This document shows, piece after piece, positions 11,719 through 43,300 of a stretch of 44,954 nucleotides of DNA. The number at the start of each line of letters is the position of its first letter. Positions within the stretch are counted from its first letter, which is position 1. The DNA is from a virus: positions 1 to 44,954 of the IMG/VR virus record IMGVR_UViG_3300030382_004385; one strand, written 5' to 3'. The translations under genes were made by a program, and so were the position numbers. The notes under the pieces were generated by a model. That model made no database searches. It was not told the DNA's origin and worked only from the letters and a program-made list of their open reading frames with translations.

Positions 11719-13449
11719 ATGAAAAACCTCGGATTTACAAAAAAAGATTTTTGGCTAACATCAACCTCAAAGAGTACATCAAAGAGTACATCTCACTCAA
11801 CTAGTAAAACTACAACCTGGTCGACTAGTAAGTCTACCACTACTATATATAATACATCTACAAATAGTTTTACATTTTATGCAACAAGTTATAACACTAG
11901 TACAGATACAACTACTACTTATAACACATCTAAAGCTACTACCACAACTTATACAACAACGTGGTCTACAAGCAAATCTACAACAACTACATACGAAACC
12001 AGTAAGTCTACAACGACTACATATGAGACATCTTCTATAACTAGCAAGAGTACTACAACTACATACGAAACCAGTAAGAGTACAACCACTACTTATAATA
12101 CTACTAAAAGTACTTCAACTGCATATGAGACTAGTAAAAGTACAACCACTACTTGGGAAACTAGTCATAGTACAACCACAACTTATAATACTAGTACTGA
12201 TACTACAACTACATATACAACCACTTGGACGACAACGTTTGATACAACTACAACGTACAATACTAGTAAAAGTACTACAACAGCATATACAACAGCTTAT
12301 AATACTAGCACATCTACTAAAGAAGGTTGTCATTATGAAACTAGTAAGAGTACCACTACTACGTACGACACTAGTCAAAGTACTACAACATCATATAACA
12401 CAACTTGGTCTACTAGTAAATCTACTACGACTACGTGGTCAACTAGTAAGAGCACTACAACAACATATACAACTACTTGGACAACGACATTTGGTACGAC
12501 TACTGTATATAATACTAGTACCACTGTTAAAAGACAAACAGATTTCGGTCAGTCAACTTCTAAAAATACGACAACTACGTATAACACGAGTATAACGACA
12601 ACCTATACCACAACATGGAATACTAGTAAAAATACGACAGAGAGTAGATCAACTACTACCACGTATACCACAAGTACAGCGTATAATACTAGTACTATAA
12701 CACAGCATAGTACAACCACAACTTGGACCACCACATATACAACTTCAACGGTATATAATACAAGTCACGCTACATCTACGTCAAGGAGTACTAGTCAAAG
12801 TACCACGACCACATATACTACAACATGGGCGACTAGTAAAAGTACCACTGAAAGCAGAAGCACAACCACAACATATACAACAAGTACAACATACAATACT
12901 AGTACTATAACACAACACAGTACGACTACGACTTGGACTACTACGTATACAACATCAACAACTTATGAGACTAGTCATGCTACTTCTACATCTAGGAGTA
13001 CTAGTCAACATACATTTACAGGTTTTATTACAAGTTATAATACAAGTACTAATACAACAGAAAGTAGATCAACTACCACTACGTATACAACAACAACAAC
13101 ATATAATACAAGTACGACAACGACTACGATATATAATAGAGAAACATCAAAGAGTACCACAACTACGTGGTCAACGAGTAGATCTACAACAACAACATGG
13201 GCAACTAGTAGGTCAACTACGACTTATTGGAATACTAGTAAATCAACAACTACTACATGGAACACAAGTAGAAATACAACTGAAAGTAGGAGTACATCAA
13301 CCACTAGATCAACAACAACAACATACTCTACTAGTAAAAGTACAGATACTCAATATAGTACATCAACAACTACAACAACCACTTATTATACAAATGTAGA
13401 AACAAGTAGAACCACTGAAACAGGTGGTTGTATGAGAGGATGTATATAA
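11719..13449 (+). CDS. Thr/Ser-rich 10-residue-repeat protein A
   Basis: Almost all 576 residues are Thr, Ser, Tyr, Trp, Asn, Lys or Glu, arranged in decapeptides such as STTTTYNTSK with an aromatic residue near the middle. Only a short N-terminus (MKNLGFTKKDFWLTS) and the Cys-containing end (GGCMRGCI) differ. Long blocks recur, including NTTESRSTTTTYTTS and NTSTITQHSTTTTWTT. Many NTS/NTT sequences are N-glycosylation-type sequons, and the density of Thr/Ser resembles mucin-like O-glycan acceptors. It has no signal peptide, so a virion surface role is more likely than secretion. It is a paralogue of the gene at 14504. Adhesion, capsid decoration or ice-like binding are possible, but the function is unknown. 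Confidence 0.8.
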   Translation: MKNLGFTKKDFWLTSTSKSTSKSTSHSTSKTTTWSTSKSTTTIYNTSTNSFTFYATSYNTSTDTTTTYNTSKATTTTYTTTWSTSKSTTTTYETSKSTTTTYETSSITSKSTTTTYETSKSTTTTYNTTKSTSTAYETSKSTTTTWETSHSTTTTYNTSTDTTTTYTTTWTTTFDTTTTYNTSKSTTTAYTTAYNTSTSTKEGCHYETSKSTTTTYDTSQSTTTSYNTTWSTSKSTTTTWSTSKSTTTTYTTTWTTTFGTTTVYNTSTTVKRQTDFGQSTSKNTTTTYNTSITTTYTTTWNTSKNTTESRSTTTTYTTSTAYNTSTITQHSTTTTWTTTYTTSTVYNTSHATSTSRSTSQSTTTTYTTTWATSKSTTESRSTTTTYTTSTTYNTSTITQHSTTTTWTTTYTTSTTYETSHATSTSRSTSQHTFTGFITSYNTSTNTTESRSTTTTYTTTTTYNTSTTTTTIYNRETSKSTTTTWSTSRSTTTTWATSRSTTTYWNTSKSTTTTWNTSRNTTESRSTSTTRSTTTTYSTSKSTDTQYSTSTTTTTTYYTNVETSRTTETGGCMRGCI

Positions 13450-13461
13450 AATTAAAATAAT

Positions 13462-14511
13462 ATGGCAACACAAATACAAAACGCATATAAAGACGCAACA
13501 TTAACGTTCACAGATGATCAAATTACTTGGCATTGTCCTCATCCAACGAACCATGGTGCAGCTGGAACATATGAAGTAATGATGGGTTGGGAACAACCTA
13601 TTATGGAAAAAATGGCGGAACTTGCCGTATCCGAAGGGGACCATGTTCTTGAGTGTGGTTTTGGTATGGGTATATTATCTAATGCTATTCAAGCTAGAAA
13701 TCCTGCGTCACATACGATATGTGAATTTCACCCACAGGTAATAGAAAAAGCTAAAGCGTGGGCAGTTGGAAAATCTAATGTTACAATACATGAAGATAAA
13801 TGGTGGTCACTATATGGTACGACTGGTAGATATGACGCTATATTAATGGATACATATGCAGATGATGATTTGCATGCTAAATTTAGAATGTTTTGCACAG
13901 CAAAAATAGTAAAAACTGGTGGTAAGGTTACTTGGTGGAATTTTAGTGGTGGAGATTCTGATGAATATATGAAGTTTTATTGGACAGATGGTGTAACATT
14001 TACTGATGTTGCTGTAGATCCACCTATGAATTCATATTATAATAAAGATATTTATAAAGTGCCTCTTAAAATATTAACACCACCTGCAACAGGAAGAGGT
14101 ATAGTTAGTGATGTAACTGTTAATATGCCTGATTCTGCTACAAAAGAAATTGAAGCAATACATAATCATAGTATTGTAACATGCGCTGATGTTAGCAGTC
14201 CTGACTTAATTAATCAAACTTCTGGTAGAACACTTGTTATGGTATGTAAAGGAGTTTATAATATAAATAATGGATTACTAAAAGTAACTGGTAATCATCC
14301 AATGATAGTAAAAAGAGATGGATCTTGGGTGGAAAAAAATATGAATGAAGTAGTTGTTGGTGATAAACTTTATAAAATAGATAATACTGAAGTAGAAATA
14401 ACAAGTATTGATTTTGATAGTTCAGATACACGACATACTATAGCTAGAGTATTAATTGATCATAATTATTTTGTTAACAATATTTTAATGAAAGGAGGAT
14501 CTGATGGCTAA
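13462..14511 (+). CDS. SAM-dependent methyltransferase fused to a Hint domain
   Basis: Residues about 1-205 form a class I methyltransferase: VLECGFGMG (62-70) is the SAM-binding Gly loop, CEFHP (87-91) the acidic end of the second strand, and YDAILMDTY (124-132) the fourth strand. From about 235 a Hint (hedgehog/intein) remnant follows: TGNHPMIV (276-283, block B TxxH), VVVGDKLYK (297-305) and DHNYFVNNILM (333-343, block F-like). The usual block G His-Asn end is replaced by KGGSDG, and the N-terminal half is short, so splicing is doubtful. It lies between two Thr-rich genes and overlaps the second by 8 nt. Methylation of those proteins is plausible but unproven. Confidence 0.75.
   Translation: MATQIQNAYKDATLTFTDDQITWHCPHPTNHGAAGTYEVMMGWEQPIMEKMAELAVSEGDHVLECGFGMGILSNAIQARNPASHTICEFHPQVIEKAKAWAVGKSNVTIHEDKWWSLYGTTGRYDAILMDTYADDDLHAKFRMFCTAKIVKTGGKVTWWNFSGGDSDEYMKFYWTDGVTFTDVAVDPPMNSYYNKDIYKVPLKILTPPATGRGIVSDVTVNMPDSATKEIEAIHNHSIVTCADVSSPDLINQTSGRTLVMVCKGVYNINNGLLKVTGNHPMIVKRDGSWVEKNMNEVVVGDKLYKIDNTEVEITSIDFDSSDTRHTIARVLIDHNYFVNNILMKGGSDG
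14491..14498 (+). promoter_or_regulatory. Canonical Shine-Dalgarno before Thr-rich protein B
   Basis: AAAGGAGG lies 5 nt before the ATG at 14504, inside the end of the methyltransferase-Hint gene. Other starts inspected in the window have A/T-rich leaders without such a site. It decides the start and suggests special translation of this gene. It also encodes part of the Lys-Gly-Gly end of the Hint protein, so coincidence is possible. Confidence 0.6.
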
Positions 14512-16237
14512 TACTACTACAACTTATATGACTCAGGCGAATACGTCTAGATCAACTTCTACATCTTGGGAAACAACTAGATCAACCACAACTTCTTGGA
14601 ATACTAGTAGAAGTACAACAGAAACATTTAATACAACAACTACGTACACAACATCAACTACGTTTTCAACTAGTGCAAGTACAACAACCACGTATAGTAC
14701 CAGTCAAAGTACAACAACTACGTACAATACGAGTCAAAGTACTACGACTACGTTTAATACGAGTCAAAGTACAACAACAACATATATGACAGCAATTAGT
14801 CATAGTACAACAACTACTTGGTCTACTAGTAAAAGTACCACAGAAAGTAGGAGTACAACAACGACTTACACCACATCAACTGCATATAATACTAGTACAG
14901 AAACTAAGAGATCCACAACAACTACTTGGACTACCACATATGATACAACCACTACGTATAATACATCAAAAAATACAACTGAAAGTAGAAGTACAAGTCA
15001 AGCAACTACTACTACTTACACTACTACGTGGGCTACAAGTAAGAATACAACAGAAAGTAGATCAACAACTACTACATACTCAACTACAACTACATATAAT
15101 ACGTCGACTATAACGCAGCACAGTACTACTACAACTTGGACAACAACGTTCAATACAACAACTACTTATGAAACTAGTCACAATACAACAGAAAGTAGAT
15201 CAACTAGTCAGAGTACAACTACTACATATACAACTACGTGGGGTACTAGTCGAAACACTACAGAAAGTAGAAGTACTACAACTACTTATACAACATCAAC
15301 GGTGTATGAAACTAGTTCTATAACTAGTAGAACTACTACTTGGGAAACAACTAAATCCACGACAACTACTTTTAATACAAGTACGATGGATTTTACATTT
15401 TATTTAACAGCTTATAATACTAGTACAAGTACACAAACAAGTAGATCAACATCTTCTATAACATCGAAGAGTACTACTACCACATATAATACTAGTCAAA
15501 GTACTACTACTACATATAATACTACTACTTTAACGAGTAAAAGTACTACAACAACTTGGAGTACTAGCAAGAGTACAACCACTACGTATAACACTCAAAC
15601 GTTTTGGAACACAACTACTCTTTATAATACATCTACAGTAACAAGTAAAAGTACAACTACAACATATGAGACTAGTCATGATGTTTCTACATCTAGATCA
15701 ACGTCATCAATAACTTCTAAAAGTACCTCTACAACTTGGTCAACTAGTAAAAGTACAACTACTACGTATAATACGTCTACAACTACTACTACAACGTATA
15801 ATACAAGTACTACAACTACAACAACATATGAAACCAGTAAAAGTACTACCACAACATACAACACAAGTACCTCTACTACAACAGCGTATACTACTACGTG
15901 GAATACTTCAAAGTCTACTACCACAACGTATGAGACAAGTAAAAGTACCACAACAACATATAACACGAGTACTATAACGCAGCATAGTACAACTACGACG
16001 TATGAAACAAGTAAGACTACCACAACCGTATACAATACTAGCACTATTGTTAAAAGACAAACAACATATACTAATTCAACTAGTAAATCTACTACTACCA
16101 CTTTCAATACTAGTACAACTACTACTTACAATACGAGTACAACCACAACTTACAATACGAGTACAAATACTACTAAATCATGGTATAGTACATATACAAA
16201 AGATTACTCTACTGAGCGAGAGGATTTAGATAGGTAG
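14504..16237 (+). CDS. Thr/Ser-rich 10-residue-repeat protein B
   Basis: This 577-aa paralogue of the protein at 11719 differs from it by one residue in length. Decapeptides such as STTTTYNTSQ repeat through the whole protein. It shares the blocks NTTESRSTTTTYTTS, NTSTITQHSTTTTWTT and an interrupting FTFY(L/A)T(A/S)YNTST. The short charged end (YTKDYSTEREDLDR) replaces the Cys-rich end of protein A. There is no signal peptide or membrane segment. A good Shine-Dalgarno and an 8-nt overlap couple it to the methyltransferase-Hint gene. A glycosyltransferase-like gene follows 55 nt downstream. Glycosylated surface decoration is inferred from composition and neighbours. Confidence 0.8.
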   Translation: MANTTTTYMTQANTSRSTSTSWETTRSTTTSWNTSRSTTETFNTTTTYTTSTTFSTSASTTTTYSTSQSTTTTYNTSQSTTTTFNTSQSTTTTYMTAISHSTTTTWSTSKSTTESRSTTTTYTTSTAYNTSTETKRSTTTTWTTTYDTTTTYNTSKNTTESRSTSQATTTTYTTTWATSKNTTESRSTTTTYSTTTTYNTSTITQHSTTTTWTTTFNTTTTYETSHNTTESRSTSQSTTTTYTTTWGTSRNTTESRSTTTTYTTSTVYETSSITSRTTTWETTKSTTTTFNTSTMDFTFYLTAYNTSTSTQTSRSTSSITSKSTTTTYNTSQSTTTTYNTTTLTSKSTTTTWSTSKSTTTTYNTQTFWNTTTLYNTSTVTSKSTTTTYETSHDVSTSRSTSSITSKSTSTTWSTSKSTTTTYNTSTTTTTTYNTSTTTTTTYETSKSTTTTYNTSTSTTTAYTTTWNTSKSTTTTYETSKSTTTTYNTSTITQHSTTTTYETSKTTTTVYNTSTIVKRQTTYTNSTSKSTTTTFNTSTTTTYNTSTTTTYNTSTNTTKSWYSTYTKDYSTEREDLDR

Positions 16238-16292
16238 AAAGTGGTAAAAATGTGTAATTATATATATACTAATATAAATTAAATTTAATAAT

Positions 16293-17201
16293 ATGGAAAT
16301 GTTTAATAAGAAGGAACTAGATAAAAGAATAGGTCCCCTTAAAAAGAATAAAAAACTATATGAACTAGAAACAATCGAGGGATATGTTATTAGAAAATGT
16401 AGTGAACTTAACTTAGAATCAAGTTATGATGTTTTGGCAGAAGAAATGCCTTATTTTAAAACAATGGGTTATACAGAGTTTGCAACAAACTTTTACATGC
16501 AACCATTGAATCTTAAACAAAGGAATGAACAGCTAGCTGATGCATGGAATTCAAAACCAGAATCTGTAGAAGATTACGCTAGCTATTTGATAAATAATAT
16601 TCAAAAAAACACTGCTAATAAGTATACAGATAGATCTGAAGAATTTGATAAGTATCCACCAAAAGATTATTTGGTTGTACTACCTGGATCTAATAAAATA
16701 AAATCTAATATCTGTTTAAACAGATTAAGAAAGATTAAAAAGAAACATGGAGATAATATATATTTTAAACCACACCCGATAACAACTCATCAAATAATTG
16801 GTGAATTAAAGGATTTTTTTGGTGAACAATGTATATTACCTAGAACAATAGACATGTACTATTACATGCAAAAAGCTAAAAGTGTTTATACAACACATAT
16901 AAGTGAAAGTGCTATTTATGCTGCTCTTTTAGGTAAAAGAATAGAACCAATAGATGTTTGGAATAATGTTATGCATGGATCATTTTCGTGTATAAATAGT
17001 TATCTTTTTACACATCAAGATAATATAAAAGAATTTATAAATCATACTTTCTCAAGTCATAAATCAGGGATTATTAATCCCCATGTAGATAAAGATTGGA
17101 GAGATAAAGTTGATAAATATTTTGATTATATCATGGAAAAAAGAGAAGTATATAAAGATTGGTTTATTGTAAATGAGAAAAAGAAAGTTGTTAAGAAGTA
17201 A
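16293..17201 (+). CDS. GT-B-like glycosyltransferase
   Basis: The 302-residue protein has a helical N-terminal half and a C-terminal Rossmann-like half. LVVLPGSNK (127-135) starts the nucleotide-sugar domain. FKPHP (158-162), the typical KPHP of capsule-type and CDP-glycerol-type transferases, follows, and then SVYTTHISESAIYAALLG (197-214), a Ser/Glu/Ala loop that would hold the donor phosphates. These features fit the capsule-synthesis/sialyltransferase-like GT-B group, though the exact family is unclear. The length is short for a two-domain GT-B enzyme. Its position directly after the Thr/Ser-rich pair suggests that it glycosylates them. Alternatively it modifies host polysaccharide. Confidence 0.6.
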   Translation: MEMFNKKELDKRIGPLKKNKKLYELETIEGYVIRKCSELNLESSYDVLAEEMPYFKTMGYTEFATNFYMQPLNLKQRNEQLADAWNSKPESVEDYASYLINNIQKNTANKYTDRSEEFDKYPPKDYLVVLPGSNKIKSNICLNRLRKIKKKHGDNIYFKPHPITTHQIIGELKDFFGEQCILPRTIDMYYYMQKAKSVYTTHISESAIYAALLGKRIEPIDVWNNVMHGSFSCINSYLFTHQDNIKEFINHTFSSHKSGIINPHVDKDWRDKVDKYFDYIMEKREVYKDWFIVNEKKKVVKK

Positions 17202-17530: not shown

Positions 17531-17726
17531 TATCGGTAAAGATTATAAAAATGAAGCTATGCACTATGCCGTAGGCCAAGAGGTTTACGGTGGGCATACA
17601 ATCACTAATATCATTGAAGAGGATCAAAAGTTTAGCATTTATATTGCAAAAAATGATGAAGAAATTCCTTGGAAAGATTTTAATAAAAATATGGCTATAG
17701 CAATAGAATATAATTTAGAATATTAA
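17508..17726 (+). CDS. Small conserved-looking protein before the co-chaperonin
   Basis: This 72-residue protein has a central VGQEVYGGHTITNIIEED segment followed by a probable beta strand (FSIYIAKND) and a Trp-containing end (EEIPWKDFNKNMAIAIEYN). It looks like a compact beta domain. The first ATG at 17508 lies inside the previous gene, and an internal ATG at 17551 is possible. The stop and the next ATG overlap as TAATG, indicating translational coupling with the double-GroES gene. From memory, similar proteins neighbour terminase genes in marine phages. The function is unknown. Confidence 0.6.
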   Translation: MQLIRKISIGKDYKNEAMHYAVGQEVYGGHTITNIIEEDQKFSIYIAKNDEEIPWKDFNKNMAIAIEYNLEY

Positions 17727-18310
17727 TGCGTGGTTTATATAATTTTATAATAAAACCAAAAGAATCTAGATACAATAATATTAAAAAAATAGGTGATAGA
17801 GAATTAATAGTAAATACAGATAATTTTCAGCATCAATATGTTAGTCGAGAAGCTATTGTAATATCTGTCCCTAAAAGTATTAAAACTAATATAAAACCAG
17901 GTGATGGTGTTATTGTGCACCACAATGTTTTTAGAAGGTATAATGATATTAGAGGTGTTGAGAGAGATAGTAAAAGTTATTATAAAGATAACATGTATTT
18001 TGCTTTTATCGATCAAATATTTGCATATAAAGTAGATAATAATTGGACACCTTTGGATCAATATTGTTTTATTAAACCAATTAAATCATATAGTAAATTT
18101 GATATTAATAAAGAAGAACCTCTAATAGGTATAATAAAATATACTAACAAAAACTTACCAGAGGTTGGTAGTTTAATTGGCTTCACACCAAGTAGTGAAT
18201 ATGAATTTATTATTAATGGTGAAAGATTATATAGAGTAAGAACACAAGACATTACAATTAAATATGAATATCAAGGAAAAGAAGAGGAATATAATCCAAG
18301 CTGGGTATAA
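17726..18310 (+). CDS. Probable tandem double GroES-like protein
   Basis: The 194 residues read as two GroES-like domains. Domain 1 (about 1-103) has FIIKPKE at the first strand, KPGDGVIVHH (57-66) matching the GroES phrase KxGDxVxF, and DQIFAYK (96-102). Domain 2 (about 109-182) has YCFIKPI, VGSLIGFTP (147-155) and NGERLYRVRTQDI (164-176), matching the last strands of GroES. A long loop in each half could be the mobile loop. It would be a second co-chaperonin besides the 85-aa GroES at 3237, possibly capping the phage or host chaperonin for a special client such as the capsid protein or terminase. Fold assignment is by eye. Confidence 0.6.
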   Translation: MRGLYNFIIKPKESRYNNIKKIGDRELIVNTDNFQHQYVSREAIVISVPKSIKTNIKPGDGVIVHHNVFRRYNDIRGVERDSKSYYKDNMYFAFIDQIFAYKVDNNWTPLDQYCFIKPIKSYSKFDINKEEPLIGIIKYTNKNLPEVGSLIGFTPSSEYEFIINGERLYRVRTQDITIKYEYQGKEEEYNPSWV

Positions 18311-28749: not shown

Positions 28750-31700
28750 ATGCCAGAGTTAAAACATCACTTTCGTGCAGGTAAAATGAACAAAGACCTG
28801 GACGAGAGATTAGTACCAAATGGAGAATATAGAGATGCACAGAACATAGAAATTTCTACTTCTGAAGGAGATGATGTAGGTACTATTCAAAACGTTGTAG
28901 GTACTACACAGATTCTTGGTAAAACATACGACTCAAATACAGAAACTATAACTGCTAGCTGGTCCAATGCTAGTTTTGGTTTAACAAATGCTGTTTGTAT
29001 AGGATCAAAATTAAATAACGAAAATGATAAAATATACTGGTTTATCACATCAGATGAATCAGATTGCATTGCTGAATATGATGATATTAAAGGTATTATA
29101 TCACCAGTTTTAGTTGATGCTAATGATATATTAAATTGGAAAACAACAGATTATATTACTGGTATAAATGTTGTAGAAGGTATGTTATTATGGACAGATA
29201 ACAAAACTGAACCTAAAAAAATAGACATTGATGTTTTCAAATCAGGATGTGATGGTAATTTTACAACACATTCAAAATATTCAGGCAAAAAAATACATAG
29301 TGCTGATTTATCATCAGCTGCTGTTTTTACAGAAGAACACATAACAGTTGCTAAAAAAGCACCTATAACAGCACCAACGTTAACCATGGCAACATCTACT
29401 AGAGGTGGTAACGGTACTGGAATAAACCCTGTTTTAGTTTCAAACTCTACAGCTGGTTTATTTGCAGATTCAGATGGAAATGGTAAAGCAGCTGGAACTG
29501 TAGTTAGTTTAAATTTTGCACCACAATCAGTTTTTGAAGTAGGTGATATAATAATTTTAACATCCACTTATGAAGAACTTAACTCAGCAATTGATTATGA
29601 GATAAAAGTTAGATTAACCGCCGTAACAAATAGTGGTTCAAACGCCACGGCTGTTATACAAAGTATTCCAGTATTTGTGGAATATCAAGCTTTAGTATGG
29701 GAGGCGTTATTAAGTGAAGAAGGTGTTTTGTTTGAAAAGAAGTTTGTTAGATTTGGATATAGATGGAAATATACAAGTGGAGAATACTCTACATTTTCAC
29801 CATTCGGTGAATTAGCATTTAAACCAACAACATTTGAATACCTATCATCAGATGGCTACAACGTTGGTATGATTAATAATTTAAGAGATTTAACTATTAA
29901 TATTACAGATACAACACCTATTGATGTAGATGAAGTTGATATATTATATAAAGAATCTAACAATAATTTAATATATGTTGTAGATACTTTAAAAGAAGAT
30001 GAAGATGGTAATATCGCAACTTCATATAAATTAGAATCAGAAATTATAGGTAAAGTTGTAGAATCAAATCAAATGCTAAGACCATGGGATAATGTGCCAA
30101 GAAAAGCACTAGCCCAAGAGGTAACGGCTAATAGATTAATATACGCTAATTATCTACAAAACTATAATGTACCTAGTTTTAATGCCCCAGATATTTCAAT
30201 GACAATAAGTCAAGCTCCTATAACTACAGTTAAAGAACCAGAACTATCTGTTAAATCACTTAGAACATACCAAGCTGGTGTAGTGTATATAGACGCTTAT
30301 AATAGACAAACACCCGTATTTACTAGTAATGGAGCATCGAAACAAACTAGTAAAACATATGCTGAATCAGTTAACAATATACAATTAACATTAAATAATA
30401 CTCCACCCGATTGGGCAACACACTTTAAATATTATATTAAAGAAACCTCTAATGAATATTATAACTTAGCTATGGATAGATACTATCTATCTGAAGATGG
30501 TAATGTTTGGTTAAGTTTTCCTTCATCAGAAAGAAATAAAGTTAAAGAAGATGGTTATTTAATACTTAAAAAACAACATGATTCAGACGTTTTCGTAGGT
30601 GTTGAAGCAAGATATAAAGTTTTAGATATACAAAACGAAGCACCTGATTTTATAAAGTTAGTTAAAAAATCTATTGGATCAGTTGATGGTACAACAGCAC
30701 AAGATAACGTACCTCAAATAGGTAGTACAACATTTAAATTTAGAGGACCAAATCCTTTAGATAGTCCAAGTTTTGCACAAGGATTTACAGCTGATGGATT
30801 AATACAATTAGTTGTTGGTGGAGCAAAAACAGCTAAATACGATATAATTAGTGGTGGTTATAGTGGTGAAGAAGATCATGAAGATCTTACTCATAAACAT
30901 ATTTATTCTGTATCTATAAGTGAACCACTGAAAGAAGGGGAGACAATGCTTGCTAGTTTAAGTGCTGCTGCAAGTGATTCAGCCGCTGGTAGTTCATTAA
31001 GTGTTATTTTATATGAAGAACAATTTAAAAGAAAACCAGAATTTTATGGTAGGTTCTTTGTTAAAATAAATAGAGATGGTGATTTTGATACTAATATTAT
31101 AGAAACATACCCTGATGTTCAAGCAGAATACGGTATTGTAAATAGTCGAACTGTTTATGCTGATTCTCAAAATAGTGGTCCTGGGGACGGTGATCAAGAA
31201 GCATCATGGTACGATACAGGACAAAGTAGTAGACATTCTAGTTATTATATAACATCAGCTAATAACGGCCATCCTAAAATGGGTAGCAAATTTATGAGAA
31301 TATATTGGACTGGAGCTCCATCTGGAGAACCTAGGAAAAAACATGATAAAGCTGATACTATAAATTCTTGGTTAAAATCATTATCTAACGCTGGAACATT
31401 GTTTAGAATGAAAGGTAGTAGTACTAATAATACCAGTGAAGTTTATGTGGTTGTTGGATCTACTATTAAGTATCAATATAGAAGACAAGGAAGAAGAAGA
31501 TTAGGTAGTACTAAAAGAAGAGAGTATAAAATAGAATTTGAACATGCTGTAAATTTAACTCCTTATGAAGATTCATTTACTTTTGGTAGTGATAAAATAG
31601 ATGAAATACAAATCGTTGAAAAAATTATAGATAGTAATAATGAAACTATAACATCTGATAATCCCGCTGTTTGGGAAACAGAACCAAGAGAAGCTATAGA

Positions 31701-34700
31701 TATGGATTTATACTATGAAACTGGTAATACATATGCAATAGCACAACATGGTACAACTCACACAATACCATTTAAAAATTGTTATTCATTTGGAAATGGT
31801 GTAGAATCAGATAGATTAAGAGATGATTTTAATGCTGTTAAAATTGATAAAGGTGTTAAAGTATCAACTGTATTAGCAGAACAATATAAAGAAGAAAGAA
31901 GAAAGAATGGTTTAATATACTCTGGTTTATTTAATTCGACAAGTGGTGTAAATAGATTAAATCAATTTATTGCTGGTGAAGCTATAACAAAAGATATTAA
32001 TCCTCATTATGGTAGTATACAAAAAATACATGCTAGAAATACAGATCTAGTTACGTTTTGTGAAGACAAAGTATTAAAAATATTAGCAAATAAAGACGCT
32101 TTATATGAAGCTAGTGGTAATCCACAATTAACAGCAACAAATAGAGTATTAGGTCAAGCAATACCTTTTGTAGGTGAATATGGTATATCTACAAATCCAG
32201 AGTCATTTGCATCATATGCTTTTAGAGTTTATTTTGCAGATAAAAATAGAGGTGCAATACTTAGATTATCAAGAGATGGTTTAACAGCTATATCTGAAAA
32301 TGGTATGAGGGATTATTTTAAAGATGGTTTACCAACTTCAACATTAGTATTAGGTAGTTATGATGATAGTAAAGGATTATATAATTTAACATTAAATAAT
32401 GAAACAGTATCTTTTGATGAAAAAATAAATGGTTTCCCTAGTTTTAAATCATTTATACCAGAAGGAGCTGTATCTTTAAATAATAAATATTATTCTTTTA
32501 AAAATGCTAATTTGTGGGTTCATAATAATGAAAAGAGAAATAGATTTTATGATACTTCAGGTGGTGAAGATGATGCAACAAAATATTATGAATCTTCTGT
32601 AACGGTATTAATTAATGATATACCAGAAACAATAAAAGGATTTAAAACAGTAAACTATAGTGGGTCAAGATCAAAAATATACACAAATGATTATGATGCT
32701 GGGAATGATTATGACAATCCAACATACACAGATTCAGATGGTTGGTATTGTAATTCCATAACTACAGATGTTCAAACTGGATTTATAAAAGAATTTACAA
32801 AGAAAGAAAATAGATATTATAATTATATAAAAGGTGACACAACAACTTTAGCTAATTTAGATAGTCAAGAATTTAATGTTCAAGGTATTGGACAATACAC
32901 GGGTAGTTTATCTGGAGATGTTGCTTTAGCAGACAAAACAGTTACAGTTAGTTTGACTGGAGTAAATGGCGCTACTGTAGATAATTATACTTTTGATGTA
33001 GAAGTTGGTACTGAAATACATACTGCTAACTCTAGTATCACAATGACACTAACACCTAGTAATGGATATACATTAACAGCTGGTGATCTTAGTGTTGTAG
33101 AAGGTAATAACACTAGTATGATAACTGAATATGTTACAAGTGTTACATTTGCGCAAACTGGAACTAATGTTACTGCTACAGTAAACTTTACAGATGGTGT
33201 TAATATGCCTGTTGGTGACTTAAGTATTCCTTTAGCTGTAACAGGTGATGGTGCTCTTAATGTGTATTTATTACACGATGTGGCTTTAAATTATAATACA
33301 GATAGTAATATTACAGTAACAAAAGCATGGTCAGGAACAAGCAATGCTACAGCTGAAAATCATGTTGCTAGAACAGGTCTTCCTGGTAATTATGGTGTAG
33401 CTAGTCAAGTTGCAACAATAGAATTTAACTTAGATACTAACTATGATTTTAAAGTAGCACCTAGTTATAAATTAGATAGAGATATTGCAAATGATCCGGA
33501 AAGTGAATATACTGTAACATATCAAGATTATGATGTATCCGCTGCAGCTATAACTATAGGAGCTGGAGGTAAAGTATTAGCTGATGTAGATAAAAGAATA
33601 TATACAATAACATATAAATTTCCTGCAAGACCAACTAGTGATGATATTTTTACATTTGACGCTATATCAACCCCAGCAGAAGTTACTGAAGATAATAAAA
33701 TAACTGGTTACAACGTTTCTGGTTTAGTAAATGCAAGTAGATTTGAAAATACTAAAAACATATCCGTATATGGAGCGGTAGGTTCTACTTTTACATTTAA
33801 CAGAGTTATAGATAGTGGCGTTGCTAACGCTTGGGATGGAGATAGTTTTGAAAATTCTGTAGCATATAAAGGTAAAATAAGAATCGCAAGGGTTGCTGAT
33901 ACTAGTAAATATAAAGAGTATGAGGTAACTAATGTTGTTGATGGGACTGGATATTGGAAACTAACAGTACAAAATGATACAGGTAGTGTATCACCACTTA
34001 GTACTTTTCCACATGGGGATCCTGTTGTTATTACTCTTTATGATCAAAGTGGATCTGCTTATAGTGGTTTTACAAATAAAACATATGATTGGGATCAAAA
34101 TTTAACTGATTCAGATCCTGGAGCTGGAGAAGTAAAGGGAAACCAAACTGCTTTACAAAATATTACAACAATATATATAGATGAGGTAGATCAAACAGCT
34201 GCTAATTTAGATGCTCAATTTACAATATTAAGTGGTACATCTGCTGGTAGTACTACTACTTTAACAATAGGTGAAAATGGAGTTTATATAATACCAATAA
34301 CTTTCTTTGAAATATCAACTTCTTCAGTATATGTATTCACGATAGCAGCTGTTTCACCAACAACATTATTAAGTCCTTTAATGGGTAACATATATGATAA
34401 TAGTGGTAACGTAACTAATCCATTTACTGTTAATCAATATGCTGATCCAACATTAACCCTAACAGCAGCAGGTACTGGTGTTACCGTAACGTCTAGTAAC
34501 GTAACATCAACATATACAGCGTTAGGTTTTCCTGTAGAATCATCTGGATTTTTCAAAATTCCATTAACAATAACAGGTACAGCCACTAGTAATATAACAG
34601 CTAACAGAGAACCAGAGACAGAAGATTTTACTAATTATAATAGTAATGGTTTTGATTGGGATTATGAGTTTACAAGTACAACTATAGATAATTCTGGTGG

Positions 34701-35211
34701 AACTAAAACAATATCAATTGTTGGGGATGTTTATGTAGATCAATATGGAACGGCTAGTACAACGTCTTCTTTACAATTAGACAATTTTATAAGTCTTGCT
34801 TCAGGTGGTAGTAGTAGTGGACAAATAATGTGGACACCTGCTGTTTCAGGATCTGGTGGATATATTATCACTGCGCTTGGTACTTACGATGATGGTACAT
34901 ATGATAGAACACTTAGTAAGCTTATTGATATTGGTACAGCTAGTGGAACAAATATAGCTGGAACTGGTGTTATAACAGGTAGTTTCTCTGGAAATACTGC
35001 ATCGCAAATAACACTAACAATAAGTGCTGTTGCCGGTGGTACATGTTGTTTAAATCCAACTACAAATCTATCTGTAACTAAAGGTGCTTTAACAGGTAGT
35101 GGTGCTAGTCAAACTTTAGCATATACATGGTCAGCCCAATTTGATGAAGCGATAGATAATGCATCGAATGCAACATTTACTGTGGCTGTTGCTTTAGATA
35201 ATGAACCTTAA
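28750..35211 (+). CDS. Giant tail stabilisation/muzzle-like protein with Ig-like C-terminus
   Basis: The 2153-residue protein starts KHHFRAGKMNKDLDERLVPN and continues GEYRDAQNIEISTSEG. This opening is widespread, as I recall, in tail stabilisation proteins of marine and crAss-like podoviruses. The first ~1370 residues are beta-rich with RLIYANYLQNYNVP, YYIKETSNEYYNLAMDRYYL and RDYFKDGLPTSTLVLG-type phrases, consistent with the muzzle at the end of the tail. From about 1380 the composition changes to Thr/Gly/Asn/Val-rich Ig-like repeats reaching the C-terminus. The extension is unusually long and could bind host glycans or form a fibre. It lacks a signal peptide and membrane segments. Confidence 0.75.
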   Translation: MPELKHHFRAGKMNKDLDERLVPNGEYRDAQNIEISTSEGDDVGTIQNVVGTTQILGKTYDSNTETITASWSNASFGLTNAVCIGSKLNNENDKIYWFITSDESDCIAEYDDIKGIISPVLVDANDILNWKTTDYITGINVVEGMLLWTDNKTEPKKIDIDVFKSGCDGNFTTHSKYSGKKIHSADLSSAAVFTEEHITVAKKAPITAPTLTMATSTRGGNGTGINPVLVSNSTAGLFADSDGNGKAAGTVVSLNFAPQSVFEVGDIIILTSTYEELNSAIDYEIKVRLTAVTNSGSNATAVIQSIPVFVEYQALVWEALLSEEGVLFEKKFVRFGYRWKYTSGEYSTFSPFGELAFKPTTFEYLSSDGYNVGMINNLRDLTINITDTTPIDVDEVDILYKESNNNLIYVVDTLKEDEDGNIATSYKLESEIIGKVVESNQMLRPWDNVPRKALAQEVTANRLIYANYLQNYNVPSFNAPDISMTISQAPITTVKEPELSVKSLRTYQAGVVYIDAYNRQTPVFTSNGASKQTSKTYAESVNNIQLTLNNTPPDWATHFKYYIKETSNEYYNLAMDRYYLSEDGNVWLSFPSSERNKVKEDGYLILKKQHDSDVFVGVEARYKVLDIQNEAPDFIKLVKKSIGSVDGTTAQDNVPQIGSTTFKFRGPNPLDSPSFAQGFTADGLIQLVVGGAKTAKYDIISGGYSGEEDHEDLTHKHIYSVSISEPLKEGETMLASLSAAASDSAAGSSLSVILYEEQFKRKPEFYGRFFVKINRDGDFDTNIIETYPDVQAEYGIVNSRTVYADSQNSGPGDGDQEASWYDTGQSSRHSSYYITSANNGHPKMGSKFMRIYWTGAPSGEPRKKHDKADTINSWLKSLSNAGTLFRMKGSSTNNTSEVYVVVGSTIKYQYRRQGRRRLGSTKRREYKIEFEHAVNLTPYEDSFTFGSDKIDEIQIVEKIIDSNNETITSDNPAVWETEPREAIDMDLYYETGNTYAIAQHGTTHTIPFKNCYSFGNGVESDRLRDDFNAVKIDKGVKVSTVLAEQYKEERRKNGLIYSGLFNSTSGVNRLNQFIAGEAITKDINPHYGSIQKIHARNTDLVTFCEDKVLKILANKDALYEASGNPQLTATNRVLGQAIPFVGEYGISTNPESFASYAFRVYFADKNRGAILRLSRDGLTAISENGMRDYFKDGLPTSTLVLGSYDDSKGLYNLTLNNETVSFDEKINGFPSFKSFIPEGAVSLNNKYYSFKNANLWVHNNEKRNRFYDTSGGEDDATKYYESSVTVLINDIPETIKGFKTVNYSGSRSKIYTNDYDAGNDYDNPTYTDSDGWYCNSITTDVQTGFIKEFTKKENRYYNYIKGDTTTLANLDSQEFNVQGIGQYTGSLSGDVALADKTVTVSLTGVNGATVDNYTFDVEVGTEIHTANSSITMTLTPSNGYTLTAGDLSVVEGNNTSMITEYVTSVTFAQTGTNVTATVNFTDGVNMPVGDLSIPLAVTGDGALNVYLLHDVALNYNTDSNITVTKAWSGTSNATAENHVARTGLPGNYGVASQVATIEFNLDTNYDFKVAPSYKLDRDIANDPESEYTVTYQDYDVSAAAITIGAGGKVLADVDKRIYTITYKFPARPTSDDIFTFDAISTPAEVTEDNKITGYNVSGLVNASRFENTKNISVYGAVGSTFTFNRVIDSGVANAWDGDSFENSVAYKGKIRIARVADTSKYKEYEVTNVVDGTGYWKLTVQNDTGSVSPLSTFPHGDPVVITLYDQSGSAYSGFTNKTYDWDQNLTDSDPGAGEVKGNQTALQNITTIYIDEVDQTAANLDAQFTILSGTSAGSTTTLTIGENGVYIIPITFFEISTSSVYVFTIAAVSPTTLLSPLMGNIYDNSGNVTNPFTVNQYADPTLTLTAAGTGVTVTSSNVTSTYTALGFPVESSGFFKIPLTITGTATSNITANREPETEDFTNYNSNGFDWDYEFTSTTIDNSGGTKTISIVGDVYVDQYGTASTTSSLQLDNFISLASGGSSSGQIMWTPAVSGSGGYIITALGTYDDGTYDRTLSKLIDIGTASGTNIAGTGVITGSFSGNTASQITLTISAVAGGTCCLNPTTNLSVTKGALTGSGASQTLAYTWSAQFDEAIDNASNATFTVAVALDNEP

Positions 35212-37395: not shown

Positions 37396-40300
37396 ATGGA
37401 AGAGTTGTATAGAAAAATGTATCTTAAATACGCTCCGCATTTAAGTGAGGGCGAAATTAACGAAAAAGTAAGTTATGCTACTACTCAAGATAGCACTAGC
37501 TTTGCCAACTCATTTTATCAAAAGTACACCGGTTCCGGTCCCTCAAAACAACAATCAAAATACATATCGAATTACACACAAGAATCACAGACTAAATCTG
37601 AAGATATAGAACAACCTAAAAGTTTTTTAAGCAAAATGAGAGACTCTGCTGTTAATGCTGTAGATTATAACGTTGCTGGACTTTTAAATACATTTGAACA
37701 AGGTCAAGGTGCTCTTAATGATATATATCAACAAATAGAAGAATCTGGATCATATGATCCAAGAAAATGGAAAGAACTTACAGGTGAACAAAAGGAATTA
37801 AATAGACAAACAGTTAGACAAGAAGGTTTTGATATAGGTTTGTGGAATCTTAGGACGAGTAAGGAGATGGAAGATAGGGTTGCAAAATTTGAAGCAAACC
37901 AAACTAGATATAATAATGATATATCTGCAGAAGTATTAAAAGGAGTAAATGCTGATTGGGGACAAGTAGCTGAAAGAACAATATTAGCTGGTATAGGATC
38001 GTGGACAAGTTATTTAGCTATGTTAAGTCCTAGAGCACTATTAGTTTTAGGTAGTAGTACAATGGGTAATAAGTGGGATGAAGAATTTGATAAAGACCCA
38101 GATAGAGCAAATTGGTTACTACTTGCTAACGCTGCGGGTACTGGTGCTATTGAATTTGGTGAAGGCATGATTACAAGAAAATTAATAGGTATACCATTTA
38201 TAAAAGCAATAAGAAATGGTACGGCTAGTGGTTCAGCTGTTACAGCAGCTAAAAACATGGTGATGAATGGGTCGGTATTAGCGTTAAAAAGATTAGGTAT
38301 TGCCATGGGTCAAGAAGGTGGTATGGAAATGGCACAAGCGTTAGCCACTACATTATGGGATAAAGCCACTTTAGGTTACCTTGGTGATAATGTACTTGGT
38401 TATTCTCCAGGTGATGATAGATATGACACTAGATTAGGTACAATGAAGAAATGGTATGAGATATTCGATGAAGGTATTGTAGGTGCTTTCATGGGTGGTA
38501 ACGTAAACATTGCTACTCAAGGTATTGAAGCATTACAAGGTAATACAGCGCAAAGAAGAGCTGAGGTTTTATTAAGACCTAAATCTGATCAAGATTTTAT
38601 AAATAAAAAATATAAAGAATTAAGTGAATTACATAAAGAATCTCAAAGTCCTGACATTACACCTGATGTTTTAGAAAGAACAAGGAATAAAATAAATGAA
38701 TTAAGTAACGAAATATTAGTTAAACAAAGTCAATCACAAAAAATAGTAAAAACATTAAGAGGTGATGCTTTAATGGAATATGCTGCAAATGTAGATAAAA
38801 TTAATAAAGCTAATAAAGCAATAGATAAGAGTAATAAGATTGGTGGTGAGATAACTCAAAATAATATTAGTAAGTTAAATCAAGATGATAAAGATGAAGC
38901 TATTAAAAGAAATGAAGAAATATGGAAAGATCATATCCATAAATCATTAAATAAGAATTTAAATATTACTGATGCTTATGCTAAAGCAGCTAGTATGGAA
39001 CAAGTGGTAGTTGAAAATGAAGATGAATATCAAGAAATATATGAAAATACAGAACAAGGTAAAAAACAAAAAGCTGTAGATGGTTATGCTGAAAATGTAA
39101 GAGGTTCAGATGGATTTTTTGATGGTTCTGGTAAATGGTATATAAATAAAAATCAAGCTTTAAAAACAGAAGCGGTATCAGTTGGATCTCACGAATTATT
39201 ACATGGTATAATGAAATCTACATTAAGAGATTCTGAAGGTGTAATGACTAAAGAAGGTAAAGCTTTAATACAATCATTTAGAAATACTTTATCTGCAAAA
39301 GAATCAAGGATTATAAATAGAAGAGTAGATACAAATTATAAATATAAAAGAGATAATAAAGGTAATTTATTAAAAGATGCTGAAGGTAAAATTATTGAAA
39401 ATGATTTTGAAGAATATGGTGAAGAATATTTAAACGCGTTTTCCGATGCTGTTCAAAAAAATCAAATACGTTATAATGAAGGTGTATTCACTAAATTAAT
39501 AGATGTATTTCAATCTTTATTTAGAAGTAAAGGATTAAATAAGAATTTTAAAGACGGTATTGATGTTTATAATTTCTTAAAAACATATGATAAAAGTATA
39601 CAAACTGGTCAAGTAGATGAAGATATAGTTGGTATGTTAAAAGAAGGTGCTAAAGGAAGAGCAACTGTTATACAAAAATCACAAACAGGTGATTTGATGA
39701 CAGATATAAACGCTTTAGTAGAACCAAATCTTACTAAAGAGGGATTTATGAATAGTGGTTATTTAGATGCTTATTCTGCAATAACAGAGACAGATTTATT
39801 AAATGGTTTAATAGGTAAAGGTATAGGTGATCCAATACATGGCAGAACTAAGAATGAATTTATAGAAGAGGTTAAGAGTAGATTAGGATTAAAAATGTAT
39901 AGGGAGTTTGATCCTACGAAAAATAATCTATTTGGATGGTTAGCTGGTAAGAAAAATATGATAGAATTTGTTAAAGGTGATGTTAACAACGCTTGGAAAC
40001 CTAAAACAGAAAAACCAATTAAATCTTTAGATACAACCATAGAGGGTAAAGAAGGTTCTAAAATGGCTCAACAAACCCCAGACACAGCTCCCAATCCTGA
40101 AGAAGCATTAATTGCTAAAGAAGAAGCTGCTGCAGCATTAGTAATACAAGAAGACAATTTAAGAAAAGAACTAGGTATTAAAGAAGATAGTGATTTATAT
40201 AATGAAATATTAGATGCTAATGAAGCTGCATTATCTGGTGTAATAGATATTGATAAAATTAGGAGTTCTATTGAATCAACATTTGTAAACAAACTTACTG

Positions 40301-43300
40301 ATAAACTTGTTACCTTAATGGGTAAGGGTAAAAAATATGAAAAGTTTATAGATGAACATGGTCAAGCTATAATAAGAAAAATTCCATTAAGATCTCTTGT
40401 CGAAATAGAAAGATTAATACCTAGGAATGAAAGAATATTTACTAAAGTTGTTAAAGAAAATATGATTCCTAGTGAAATAAGAGCTCATGAAAAAAAATAT
40501 GGACATTCTGAAAATTTATATTACGAAAGTGAAACACAAGGTCCTACATTATATAAGAAATTAGATCCAACACCAGAACAAATTAAAGGATTTTTATTAG
40601 TACCTTTAAAAATAAAAAGTAAAAAAACTGGTAAAGAAGTACGTAGTGGATTAAGAGGTAATAGAAAAACTAAATTTGCTTCATTAGGAGCTATTGAATT
40701 AGGATTTGATGGTACTATGCAAGTTGTAGAAGCTTTAGAAAGTGGTAGATCATCTGAGACACTTAAAGCAAACAAAAAATTATTACAAAGAGAACAAGCA
40801 GAATTAACAAAACAAATACAAAGGGATCCTGGTGTTCAATTATCAGTGTCAACATATCAACAGTTATCAGACATAACAATGGATATGGAAAATCCATATG
40901 ATATGTTTTTGGATGATTTTAAAACAATTAAAAAATCAATATTAGATACAATAAAAAACTTACATAAACCTACTGTTGATAGATGGTTAGACGACTTTAT
41001 AGATTTATTAGATAAATCTCAAGGTTCGGTTGCTTATTTAGGTGCTGAAGTTGTATCTTATTTAGAATCAAAAGGAATTACAACCGCTGCGGCTTTTGAA
41101 AAAGAAAGTGAACAATTAGTTATTGATATTTTAAAGAAATTTGGTATAACCGTATTACATGATAAACCTACAAATGTAGATGGACATCCAGATATTAAAA
41201 TAGAAATACGTGGTAATACAATTAATATAGAAATTAAAAAGGGTCCATATGATTCTCAAGGTGCTAGTATTAATGGTAGTATAGATTGGAATACGGGTGA
41301 ATTAATATTTGGTAAAGAAAATAATACTCAATATTTAAAAGATGCGAATGTTAAGAAATTAATAAAAGCTGCTAACAAAAATATTACAAAAGCTAAAACT
41401 AAAATAGTAAAGTTAATGAGAATAAGTTATCCTCATTTACCAAAACCAGGTGACAAAAACTTCACAAACAATTTAATACCTGAAGATATTTATAATGAAG
41501 TATTTAAAGGTAAAAATGGTCAAGGCGTAACACTTGCTCAATTTAAGGGTAATGAAAAATTTATGACTAAGGTTAATAATAATAAAAAACAACCTGTTTA
41601 TATTATAGAATATTTTGGATATGGTATGTTTGGTATGAACGCAAAACATATTGGTGGTAAAATAGGGAATCAAACATTACCAGAATTAAAAGCTGATGTA
41701 TTATATAAACTAAGAATGAATGGTAATACAGATTCTAGAAAAGTTAAGGGAAAGAAAATATATTCATACGTTACAAATAAACGAACTGGTAAGCAAGAAA
41801 AACAAAAAAACATAGGTTTTAGAATTATGGGTACTATTGTCAAAATGAAAGAAACTTCTAATGTATCTTTATTAAATAAATCTCAAGTTTTAAGTTTTTC
41901 TAAATCAGCAAATAGTGCTTTACCAGCTATAGCTAGCAATAACAATATAACATTATCTAAGTCTACAACTATAGAAGAATCTATAAGAAAGCTTAAGAAT
42001 ATGGATAAGGCCTTAAAAATGGCTAGAAGAAAAAACCCTCCTAAAAAAGGTGCAAGTTTTATAGATTTTGATGATACACTAGCAACAACAGATTCGAGGG
42101 TTATAGTAAATGCCCCACATTACGGACCAGGTAAAACAACAGAAACATCAATGAAATTAACTCCAGCGGAATTCGCTGAAGATTATGAGAGATTAGAAAG
42201 ACAAGGCGCAGCATTTGATTTTTCAGAATTTAGTGAGGTAAAAAATGGTAAAATAGGTCCTTTCTTTGATAAAGCAAAAGCATTAAAAGATAAGTTTGGT
42301 AATAGTGATATTTATATAATAACAGCAAGACCAGCTAGCGCTGCTCCAGCAATACAAAACTTTTTAAAAGGAGTAGGTTTAGATATTAAATTAGAAAATA
42401 TAATTGGTTTAGAAAATGGTACATCAATAGCTAAAGCGGAAGTTATAATAGAAAAAGCCGCAGAAGGATATAATGATTTCTTGTTTGCAGATGATCAAAT
42501 ACAAAACGTTAAAGCTGTTAAAAAAGTATTAGATATATTAGATGTTAAAGGTAAAACATATCAAGCTAAAGTACAATTCAGTAATACATTAAATGAAAAC
42601 TTTAATTATATATTAGAAGAAGCACAAGGAATAGATCCTAATGAATCAATATCAGCAGCCGCTGCTAAAGTACAAGGTGCTATTAAAAATAAATTTCAAT
42701 TCTTTATACCACCATCTGCAGAAGATTTTGTGGGGTTATTATATAATTTTATTGGTGAAGGTAAACAAGGTGAAACACATCTTAAGTTTTTAGAAAACGC
42801 TTTAGTTAAACCTTTTGCCTCAGCTTATAGAATGTTAAATGCTACAAAACAAGCTATTTCCGTTGATTTTAAAGGTTTAAAAAATAAACACAAAGGTGTT
42901 TGGGGATATATGAATAAAGATAGTGGTTATAAAAACTTTACATATGGTGATGCTGTTAGGGTATTTTTATGGAATAGAGCTGGTCATAATATACCAGGAA
43001 TGGATCAAGGAGATATTGATGCTTTAGTTAATATTGTAGAAGAATTTGGAGATTTAACAAGTTTTAGTAATGATTTAGAATTAATCACAAGATTAGATTC
43101 TTATCCAGCACCAACTGAGTATTGGACAACTGGAAATATTACTGCAGATTTATATTATGCAGCTCAAAATGTACATAGAAAACAATACTTACAAGATTGG
43201 GTTGCTAATAAAAATGAAATATTCAATCCAGATAACATGAATAAAATTGAAGCTTTATATGGTTCAAACTTTAGAGAAGCTTTAGAAGACATGTTATGGA

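Follow-up and report, generated by a model that had tools for sequence, protein, structure and literature searches.

What do two threonine-rich proteins of almost identical length build, when their genes flank that of a methyltransferase and are followed by that of a putative glycosyltransferase? We addressed this question for IMG/VR virus record IMGVR_UViG_3300030382_004385, a linear contig of 44,954 bases that was analysed over its whole length (hereafter, the window) and comes from a phage described as marine; its terminase shares 63% identity with that of a Manatee Spring podovirus and about 45% with those of Flavobacterium 'elemo' phages. An earlier, sequence-only reading of this DNA had singled out four open reading frames (ORFs), the coordinates and sizes of which (576, 349, 577 and 302 amino acids) proved exact, and had taken the repeat proteins for mucin-like virion fibres. 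Our analysis points to a different explanation of the whole, which we consider probable: the two proteins, REP1 and REP2, would pair antiparallel in a fibre with an exchangeable tip, a methylated arginine at that tip and a glycosylated shaft. The four genes are the following:

11719..13449, plus strand: REP1 (P1), threonine-rich decapeptide-repeat protein of 576 amino acids, putative fibre strand (composition, S74-bearing orthologues in relatives, antiparallel match to REP2)
13462-14511, plus strand: methyltransferase-Hint protein (P2), 349 amino acids
14504..16237, plus strand: REP2 (P3), 577 amino acids, putative second threonine-rich fibre strand, predicted to run antiparallel to REP1 (composition, length match, reversed match)
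16293..17201, plus strand: putative glycosyltransferase (P4), 302 amino acids, GT-B-like predicted fold, PHROG 26179/30602 family (predicted structure, family, linkage)

Threonine accounts for 46% of REP1 and 48% of REP2, and serine for 18% of each (64-66% together); Tyr, Trp and Phe contribute 11% and 10%, respectively, proline is absent and glycine almost absent. The aromatic residues are most often spaced by 10 positions. This composition, the decapeptide repeats and the gene order had been correctly described before, and comparison with shuffled sequences places the ordering far beyond chance: aromatic spacings are even in 55/64 cases in one protein and 53/59 in the other (86-90%), against a shuffle mean of 0.47, a level reached by 0/2000 shuffles. 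In the window pair, 201/210 serines (96%) and 55/58 asparagines (95%) occupy the parity opposite to that of the aromatics, the parity of which is shared by 91% of Lys/Arg; across the 31 marine pairs examined, 6058 of 6281 serines are off-parity. Such alternation reads as the signature of a beta strand with two different faces, unlike mucin. The N-x-S/T sequons (22 in REP1, 31 in REP2), also listed in the sequence-only reading, are no evidence of glycosylation here, since asparagine simply fills the serine-side position after each aromatic.

Neither REP1 nor REP2 has a match in Pfam or PHROG, and both tblastn of the repeat protein against phages and a search for related loci with the same query found nothing, probably because of low-complexity filtering; relatives were reached instead through genes in the vicinity and with a degenerate DNA pattern. 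Complete copies of both REP genes are present in 39 distinct loci, where the shafts measure between 139 and 1142 amino acids (the window REP1 shaft starts at about residue 8), yet the two proteins of a locus differ by a median of only 6 amino acids, compared with 186 after permutation (r 0.98; the two outliers are L031 and L282). In related contigs the paired lengths shift together, from 906/901 in L056 to 437/431 in L057. The 576/577 equality is a conserved constraint and no coincidence.

The correspondence extends to the order of the aromatic residues, but in reverse. When the Tyr/Trp/Phe positions of REP1 are compared with those of reversed REP2 near the end-to-end offset, the window pair scores 0.55, against 0.36 for the parallel comparison, 0.34 for other partners and 0.24 for shuffles that preserve the blocks between aromatics (z 9.7), with 33 face-to-face aromatics where 6.4 are expected. 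Over 35 loci, the reversed comparison has a median z of 7.3, with 31 loci above 3, and the parallel one a median of 2.3. In a gapped test, the own reversed partner outscored all five sampled foreign partners in 25/27 cases and the parallel alignment in 24. Furthermore, in the partner chain, an interval of 14 or 18 residues free of aromatics lies opposite 57% of the aromatic doublets spaced by 4 (YTTTW), versus 12% overall. Neither DNA similarity nor any known mutational process yields a reversed protein order, so that the reversal is most simply put down to selection for antiparallel contact. In our best model, REP1 and REP2 would be the two antiparallel strands of one long beta fibre, split here into two genes. 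The length constraint and the reverse-order correspondence, not noticed at first reading, are the most surprising feature of the locus. Two candidates were discarded along the way: a parallel register, the first one tested, matches only weakly, and recent gene duplication as the source of the equal lengths is contradicted by a median of 0 shared 24-mers.

If a hairpin has been split in two, its unsplit versions are expected to be palindromic about their centre. This is what we found in several single-gene relatives, namely L217 (1704 amino acids; centre 0.50, score 0.72 versus 0.29, z 17.7), L284 (centre 0.51, z 8.7), L275 (0.51, z 9.6) and L260 (0.53, z 6.6), as well as in L170, which is a REP1-REP2 fusion (centre 0.50, z 7.9); the centre of all five proteins consists of non-repetitive sequence. 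The protein of L289, the 5′ end of which is cut off, has a z of 14.4, and the threonine-rich protein of Vibrio phage KVP40 is too short for the palindrome test. These results bear on the possibility that each threonine-rich protein folds alone into a beta-solenoid that bears an aromatic ladder, the shared length being set by virion geometry only. The decapeptide periodicity fits such a fold, and many fibres of unrelated phages have a single threonine-rich gene; however, length alone predicts neither reversed aromatic matching near the end-to-end register nor palindromic single-gene versions, and indels of an even number of residues (4 and 6) disrupt any coil fixed at 10, so that we regard this explanation as unlikely.

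The same ordering argues against the mucin-like brushes of the sequence-only reading, that is, mostly disordered, densely glycosylated proteins on the virion. In their favour are the 64-66% of threonine and serine, the dedicated glycosyltransferase and the very low AlphaFold confidence, but disordered brushes can hardly explain the strict alternation, the lack of proline and near lack of glycine, the matched lengths and the reversed aromatics. Of the marks of a mucin-like protein (disorder, richness in Pro, Ser and Thr, O-glycosylation), proline is lacking and disorder is at odds with the strict alternation; an ordered beta fibre follows more readily from this alternation and from reverse-order pairing than a disordered glycan brush, which we consider improbable.

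Is the fibre modified by the enzyme encoded behind it? Among IMG/VR contigs anchored on the glycosyltransferase, the gene order is fibre-like gene(s), REP1, methyltransferase, REP2, glycosyltransferase, small genes, GroES-like gene, terminase and portal. For sampling independent of the glycosyltransferase, IMG/VR was also scanned for the repeat as such, with the degenerate DNA pattern. Among the 117 loci recovered, 87 have the glycosyltransferase on the same strand directly downstream, with a median gap of 46 bases between the open frames, 29 end within 1 kilobase (kb), and the contig of L265 ends after the methyltransferase and before any REP2; hence, the enzyme directly follows the threonine-rich ORFs in 87/87 testable loci. 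These 87 glycosyltransferases form 52 clusters at 90% identity and 10 at 50%, and some loci share a contig, so that the count is not one of fully independent cases. In the reverse direction, nearly every glycosyltransferase homologue found with a Caulobacter-led profile and flanked by enough sequence has a threonine-rich ORF at most about 0.9 kb upstream, and the wording of the repeat is often unrelated, e.g., QTNTTTPWQTNT. The sequence-only reading had tied its four-protein set to the repeats not regularly occurring without either enzyme: the pairing with the glycosyltransferase-like enzyme stands and is stronger than proposed there, whereas the methyltransferase, absent from many loci and of an unrelated type in others, is an accessory rather than an essential part of the set.

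The pairing also recurs in cultured phages. In Caulobacter phage BL199, tail fibre gp041 is followed by threonine-rich gp042 and glycosyltransferase gp043, and in Caulobacter phages Lullwater and Cr30 the glycosyltransferase homologue adjoins a threonine-rich gene. Among Vibrio phages, KVP40 encodes a threonine-rich protein (0254) and a glycosyltransferase (0256), 6E35.1a has the homologue beside a threonine-rich protein annotated as 'putative cell wall mannoprotein', and F86 has it beside an unannotated threonine-rich ORF. These phage groups are unrelated and their other neighbour genes differ; no methyltransferase gene was seen beside the isolate pairs. In F86 (OZ196285; L100 3846-4400), an intact threonine-rich ORF of 185 amino acids lies upstream of the glycosyltransferase where the public annotation has spurious small ORFs; in Caulobacter phage Quill_5.2 (L102 3349-3992), the annotated threonine-rich gene ends early and the threonine-rich sequence runs on in another frame to the glycosyltransferase, owing to a frameshift that is either genomic or introduced in assembly.

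Conceivably, the target of the enzyme is not the fibre but a glycan of the host surface, DNA or some other virion protein, its gene having simply remained in the fibre operon; phage glycosyltransferases that modify DNA or host serotype are known (PMC12619734). A homologue without a threonine-rich neighbour exists in Stenotrophomonas phage DLP_6, but the 87/87 testable loci and the recurrence of the pair in unrelated phage groups with differing other neighbours make a different target unlikely. The neighbour in DLP_6 (L099 3-1652) is an unannotated immunoglobulin (Ig)-like protein with a Hint-like C-terminus, and this is the only isolate glycosyltransferase that we saw with a non-threonine-rich neighbour.

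P4 is probably a glycosyltransferase. The AlphaFold model alternates alpha and beta elements with a predicted local distance difference test (pLDDT) score of 82, and most of its matches in the PDB are to GT-B enzymes and to UDP-GlcNAc 2-epimerases, which are related to them; the matches are distant, with template modelling (TM) scores of only 0.3-0.43; the best full-length match is KpsC, a transferase of 3-deoxy-D-manno-oct-2-ulosonic acid (Kdo; TM 0.43, E 2.6e-3). As to the 'GT-B-like enzyme' of the sequence-only reading, GT-B enzymes are what the model resembles, if weakly. Profiles of the family found no significant sequence match among PDB chains. The consensus of 44 representatives retains yD, KY, lpGxN, KPHPxT, SE and sG, three of which map in the window as follows:

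16680..16694, plus strand: LPGSN motif, kept as lpGxN over the 44 representatives
16767..16784, plus strand: KPHPIT motif, resembling the 'HP' donor-binding motif of cytidine monophosphate (CMP)-sugar transferases; KxHPxT kept in the family
16902..16907, plus strand: SE motif; S/T-E kept in the family

The HP motif is common to CMP-sialic-acid and beta-Kdo transferases (PMC2169525, PMC10148158), and P4 carries it as KPHPIT, in line with the motif of the CMP-sialic-acid transferases of GT38, GT52 and GT80 as defined in PMC2169525. No D/E-D/E-G motif of the latter families is conserved across the P4 family (the window reads YDVLAEEMPYF), nor is the QXXXD nucleophile motif of GT107 Kdo transferases, as defined in PMC10148158, conserved in the 44-sequence consensus; given that these other motifs are not conserved, we limit the claim to a probable glycosyltransferase, and a CMP-activated acidic sugar, e.g., CMP-Kdo, is our best guess for the donor. 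The motifs also bear on whether the threonine-rich proteins might remain unglycosylated and bind host glycans directly through aromatic/threonine ladders, the enzyme being degenerate. Aromatic ladders can bind sugars, but strong conservation of the predicted motifs over 44 representatives argues against a dead enzyme, and we consider this explanation highly unlikely.

The tip of the predicted fibre would lie where the end of REP1 meets the start of REP2, next to the middle gene, and the relevant features are:

13423..13446, plus strand: REP1 C-terminal tail GGCMRGCI, predicted fibre tip and predicted arginine-methylation site (R[GN] tail association)
13462..14076, plus strand: methyltransferase domain of the guanidinoacetate N-methyltransferase (GAMT) family (profile match to human GAMT 3orh, E 7e-22)
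14089..14508, plus strand: degenerate Hint (intein/hedgehog-like) domain (comparison with intact Hints fused to relatives' REP1)

The end of REP1 depends on the lineage: it may be an S74 chaperone, a Hint in which Cys1 and His-Asn are intact, a glycine-rich tail or, as in the window, a Gly/Cys tail with arginine. Because P1 relatives carry the S74 chaperone domain of tail fibres at their C-terminus (22.4 bits against the Pfam cut-off of 22), the repeat proteins can be called fibre-like, as had been supposed; a C-terminal Peptidase_S74 domain, with its SD(R)xxKxxI start, is absent from the window REP1. The middle enzyme likewise varies: it is of the GAMT type, of an unrelated spermidine-synthase-like type (PHROG 15480, E 5.5e-6; weak PDB match to methyltransferase BpumL), both or none. 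Gly/Cys-flanked R[GN] occurs in 19/21 distinct threonine-rich tails that precede the GAMT type compared with 1/162 other tails, counts that are not phylogenetically independent; of the two exceptions, L006 reflects an out-of-frame ORF end, and L290 has PPRGGGG, which the pattern missed. The WE and xDTY motifs of the phage enzyme align with GAMT, Glu44 being invariant and Asp130 nearly invariant in the phage set; they correspond to the guanidino-binding residues of rat GAMT, Glu45/Asp134. Guanidino groups are what GAMT-type enzymes act on, which makes the arginine at the tip the obvious candidate substrate and suggests that it may be methylated by the phage enzyme. No Gly/Cys-flanked R[GN] is present in the tail of the fibre that precedes the GAMT-like methyltransferases of L007-L010 and of the 635-kb phage LR745206. 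In L007, L008, L009 and L010, long S74-ended fibres without threonine repeats precede a GAMT-like methyltransferase without Hint; KCNKCKNCNCN is the C-terminal sequence of the fibre, and a glycine-rich RG tail that of the protein after it.

The methyltransferase-Hint fusion seen at first reading is confirmed in its GAMT-family part, and its second part is Hint-like by homology but has lost the catalytic residues. Profile support in the window is below threshold (Pfam Intein_splicing E 0.01; PDB 9hth E 0.001), and the domain is clearly homologous to the intact Hints fused to relatives' fibres. Cys1 and the terminal His-Asn are absent from every methyltransferase-fused Hint and present in the REP1-fused Hints of relatives. 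A split intein composed of the REP1 CxRGC tail and the methyltransferase-fused Hint is not supported, the latter lacking Cys1 and His-Asn. Threonine-rich REP1 proteins with a complete Hint (Cys1 and HN) occur in L143 (902-2608), L180, L195, L212, L242 and L248, some with a subsequent Cys-rich tail, and are candidates for self-cleaving fibre tips.

Several observations weigh against the paired, modified fibre. Four of the 35 pairs (L051, L053, L249 and L268) show little reverse matching, and no significant palindrome was found in the single-gene threonine-rich proteins of, among others, Caulobacter phages, 6E35.1a and L293, so that a hairpin cannot be claimed for all single-gene versions. Structure prediction, proposed in the sequence-only reading, gave no structure for REP2 alone (AlphaFold pLDDT 29), and the ribbon is therefore deduced from sequence only. 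For the enzyme, the fold matches are distant, and the Pfam matches in P4 relatives, Capsule_synth (PF05159) and Glyco_transf_52 (PF07922), are below cut-off. The dependence among the tail counts and the DLP_6 neighbour belong here as well.

With these points taken into account, we propose that REP1 runs outward and REP2 back in an extended antiparallel beta ribbon, one side of which would carry the mutually facing aromatics and the opposite side Ser/Asn. S74 domains are trimeric, and three such ribbons would therefore probably assemble. The hairpin turn, which would form the fibre tip, is placed where REP1 ends and REP2 begins, at the position of the middle gene; on REP1, this tip would be exchangeable between an S74 chaperone, a self-processing Hint and a Gly/Cys tail with arginine, the last of these probably methylated by the GAMT-like enzyme. 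The glycosyltransferase probably adds sugar, at best guess an acidic one from a CMP donor, to shaft Thr/Ser in the host cytoplasm before assembly; given its position directly behind the threonine-rich genes in every testable relative, the fibre on the presumed virion would probably be sugar-coated by the phage itself.

The needle at the tip of the long tail fibre of T4, gp37, is an elongated, chaperone-assisted trimer with six antiparallel strands running out and back. The predicted fibre resembles it in this out-and-back course, here seen only as antiparallel matching at the sequence level, whereas in gp37 one chain covers both directions without threonine-rich repeats, and here there are two genes, repeats matched in reverse order and a glycosyltransferase. 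With tail fibres and spikes that carry the S74 intramolecular chaperone (PF13884), the link is through relatives' REP1, GGCMRGCI standing in its place in the window. P4 resembles the retaining beta-Kdo transferase KpsC (GT107) and the bacterial sialyltransferases of GT38/GT52/GT80 in its HP motif and, distantly, in its GT-B-like predicted fold, and differs from them in the missing conserved QxxxD and D/E-D/E-G motifs and in the lack of a significant PDB sequence match; P2 resembles GAMT and Rmt2-type arginine methyltransferases in its profile match and aligned WE and DTY positions, but is phage-encoded, located beside a fibre with an Arg-Gly tail and fused to a degenerate Hint. In mycobacteriophages Che8, Corndog and Myrna, virion proteins are modified by glycosyltransferases that the phage itself encodes (Freeman et al. 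2023, as described in PMC12363180); in that description, the targets are capsid and tail-tube proteins, in contrast to the threonine-rich fibres and the different glycosyltransferase family considered here. In flagellin O-glycosylation (Maf, FlmG), a dedicated soluble glycosyltransferase decorates Ser/Thr of a long extracellular filament in the cytoplasm before assembly (PMC7591256), as proposed for the phage enzyme, although flagella are cellular and the proteins different.

A literature search, with most subscription journals outside its reach, found no description of threonine-rich phage repeats, glycosylated tail fibres or reverse-order matching. We see an about even chance that this is a previously undescribed kind of fibre, in which two threonine-rich chains from separate genes, or the halves of a single chain, are zipped antiparallel along hundreds of residues by a reverse-order aromatic code, with an exchangeable, methyl-marked tip and a shaft O-glycosylated throughout by a dedicated enzyme, the module occurring in unrelated phage groups. 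If so, PHROG 26179/30602, so far an uncharacterised enzyme family, would gain a function, as would a group of proteins of very low complexity that standard masked searches pass over, and phages of Gram-negative hosts would be seen to use a glycosyltransferase of their own in building O-glycosylated fibres. The signature of matched lengths and reverse-order matching would, moreover, predict antiparallel pairing of two gene products without any structure. Because cultured Caulobacter and Vibrio phages carry the threonine-rich/glycosyltransferase pair, glycosylation is directly testable.

A scan of bacterial contigs, one genome per species, for the glycosyltransferase gave a single match, L296 (NHFY01000092.1), an 11.7-kb contig binned in a Flavobacteriales metagenome-assembled genome; it carries a close relative of the window enzyme and is likely a phage contig that hints at the host. 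In the window, a scan for RNA families and tRNAs found none. A GroES-like co-chaperonin homologue (PHROG 13932, E 1.1e-17) at 17726-18310, just 5′ of the terminase, is kept across contigs, and two giant ORFs of 2153 and 2394 amino acids lie at 28750-35211 and 37396-44580, 3′ of the structural genes.

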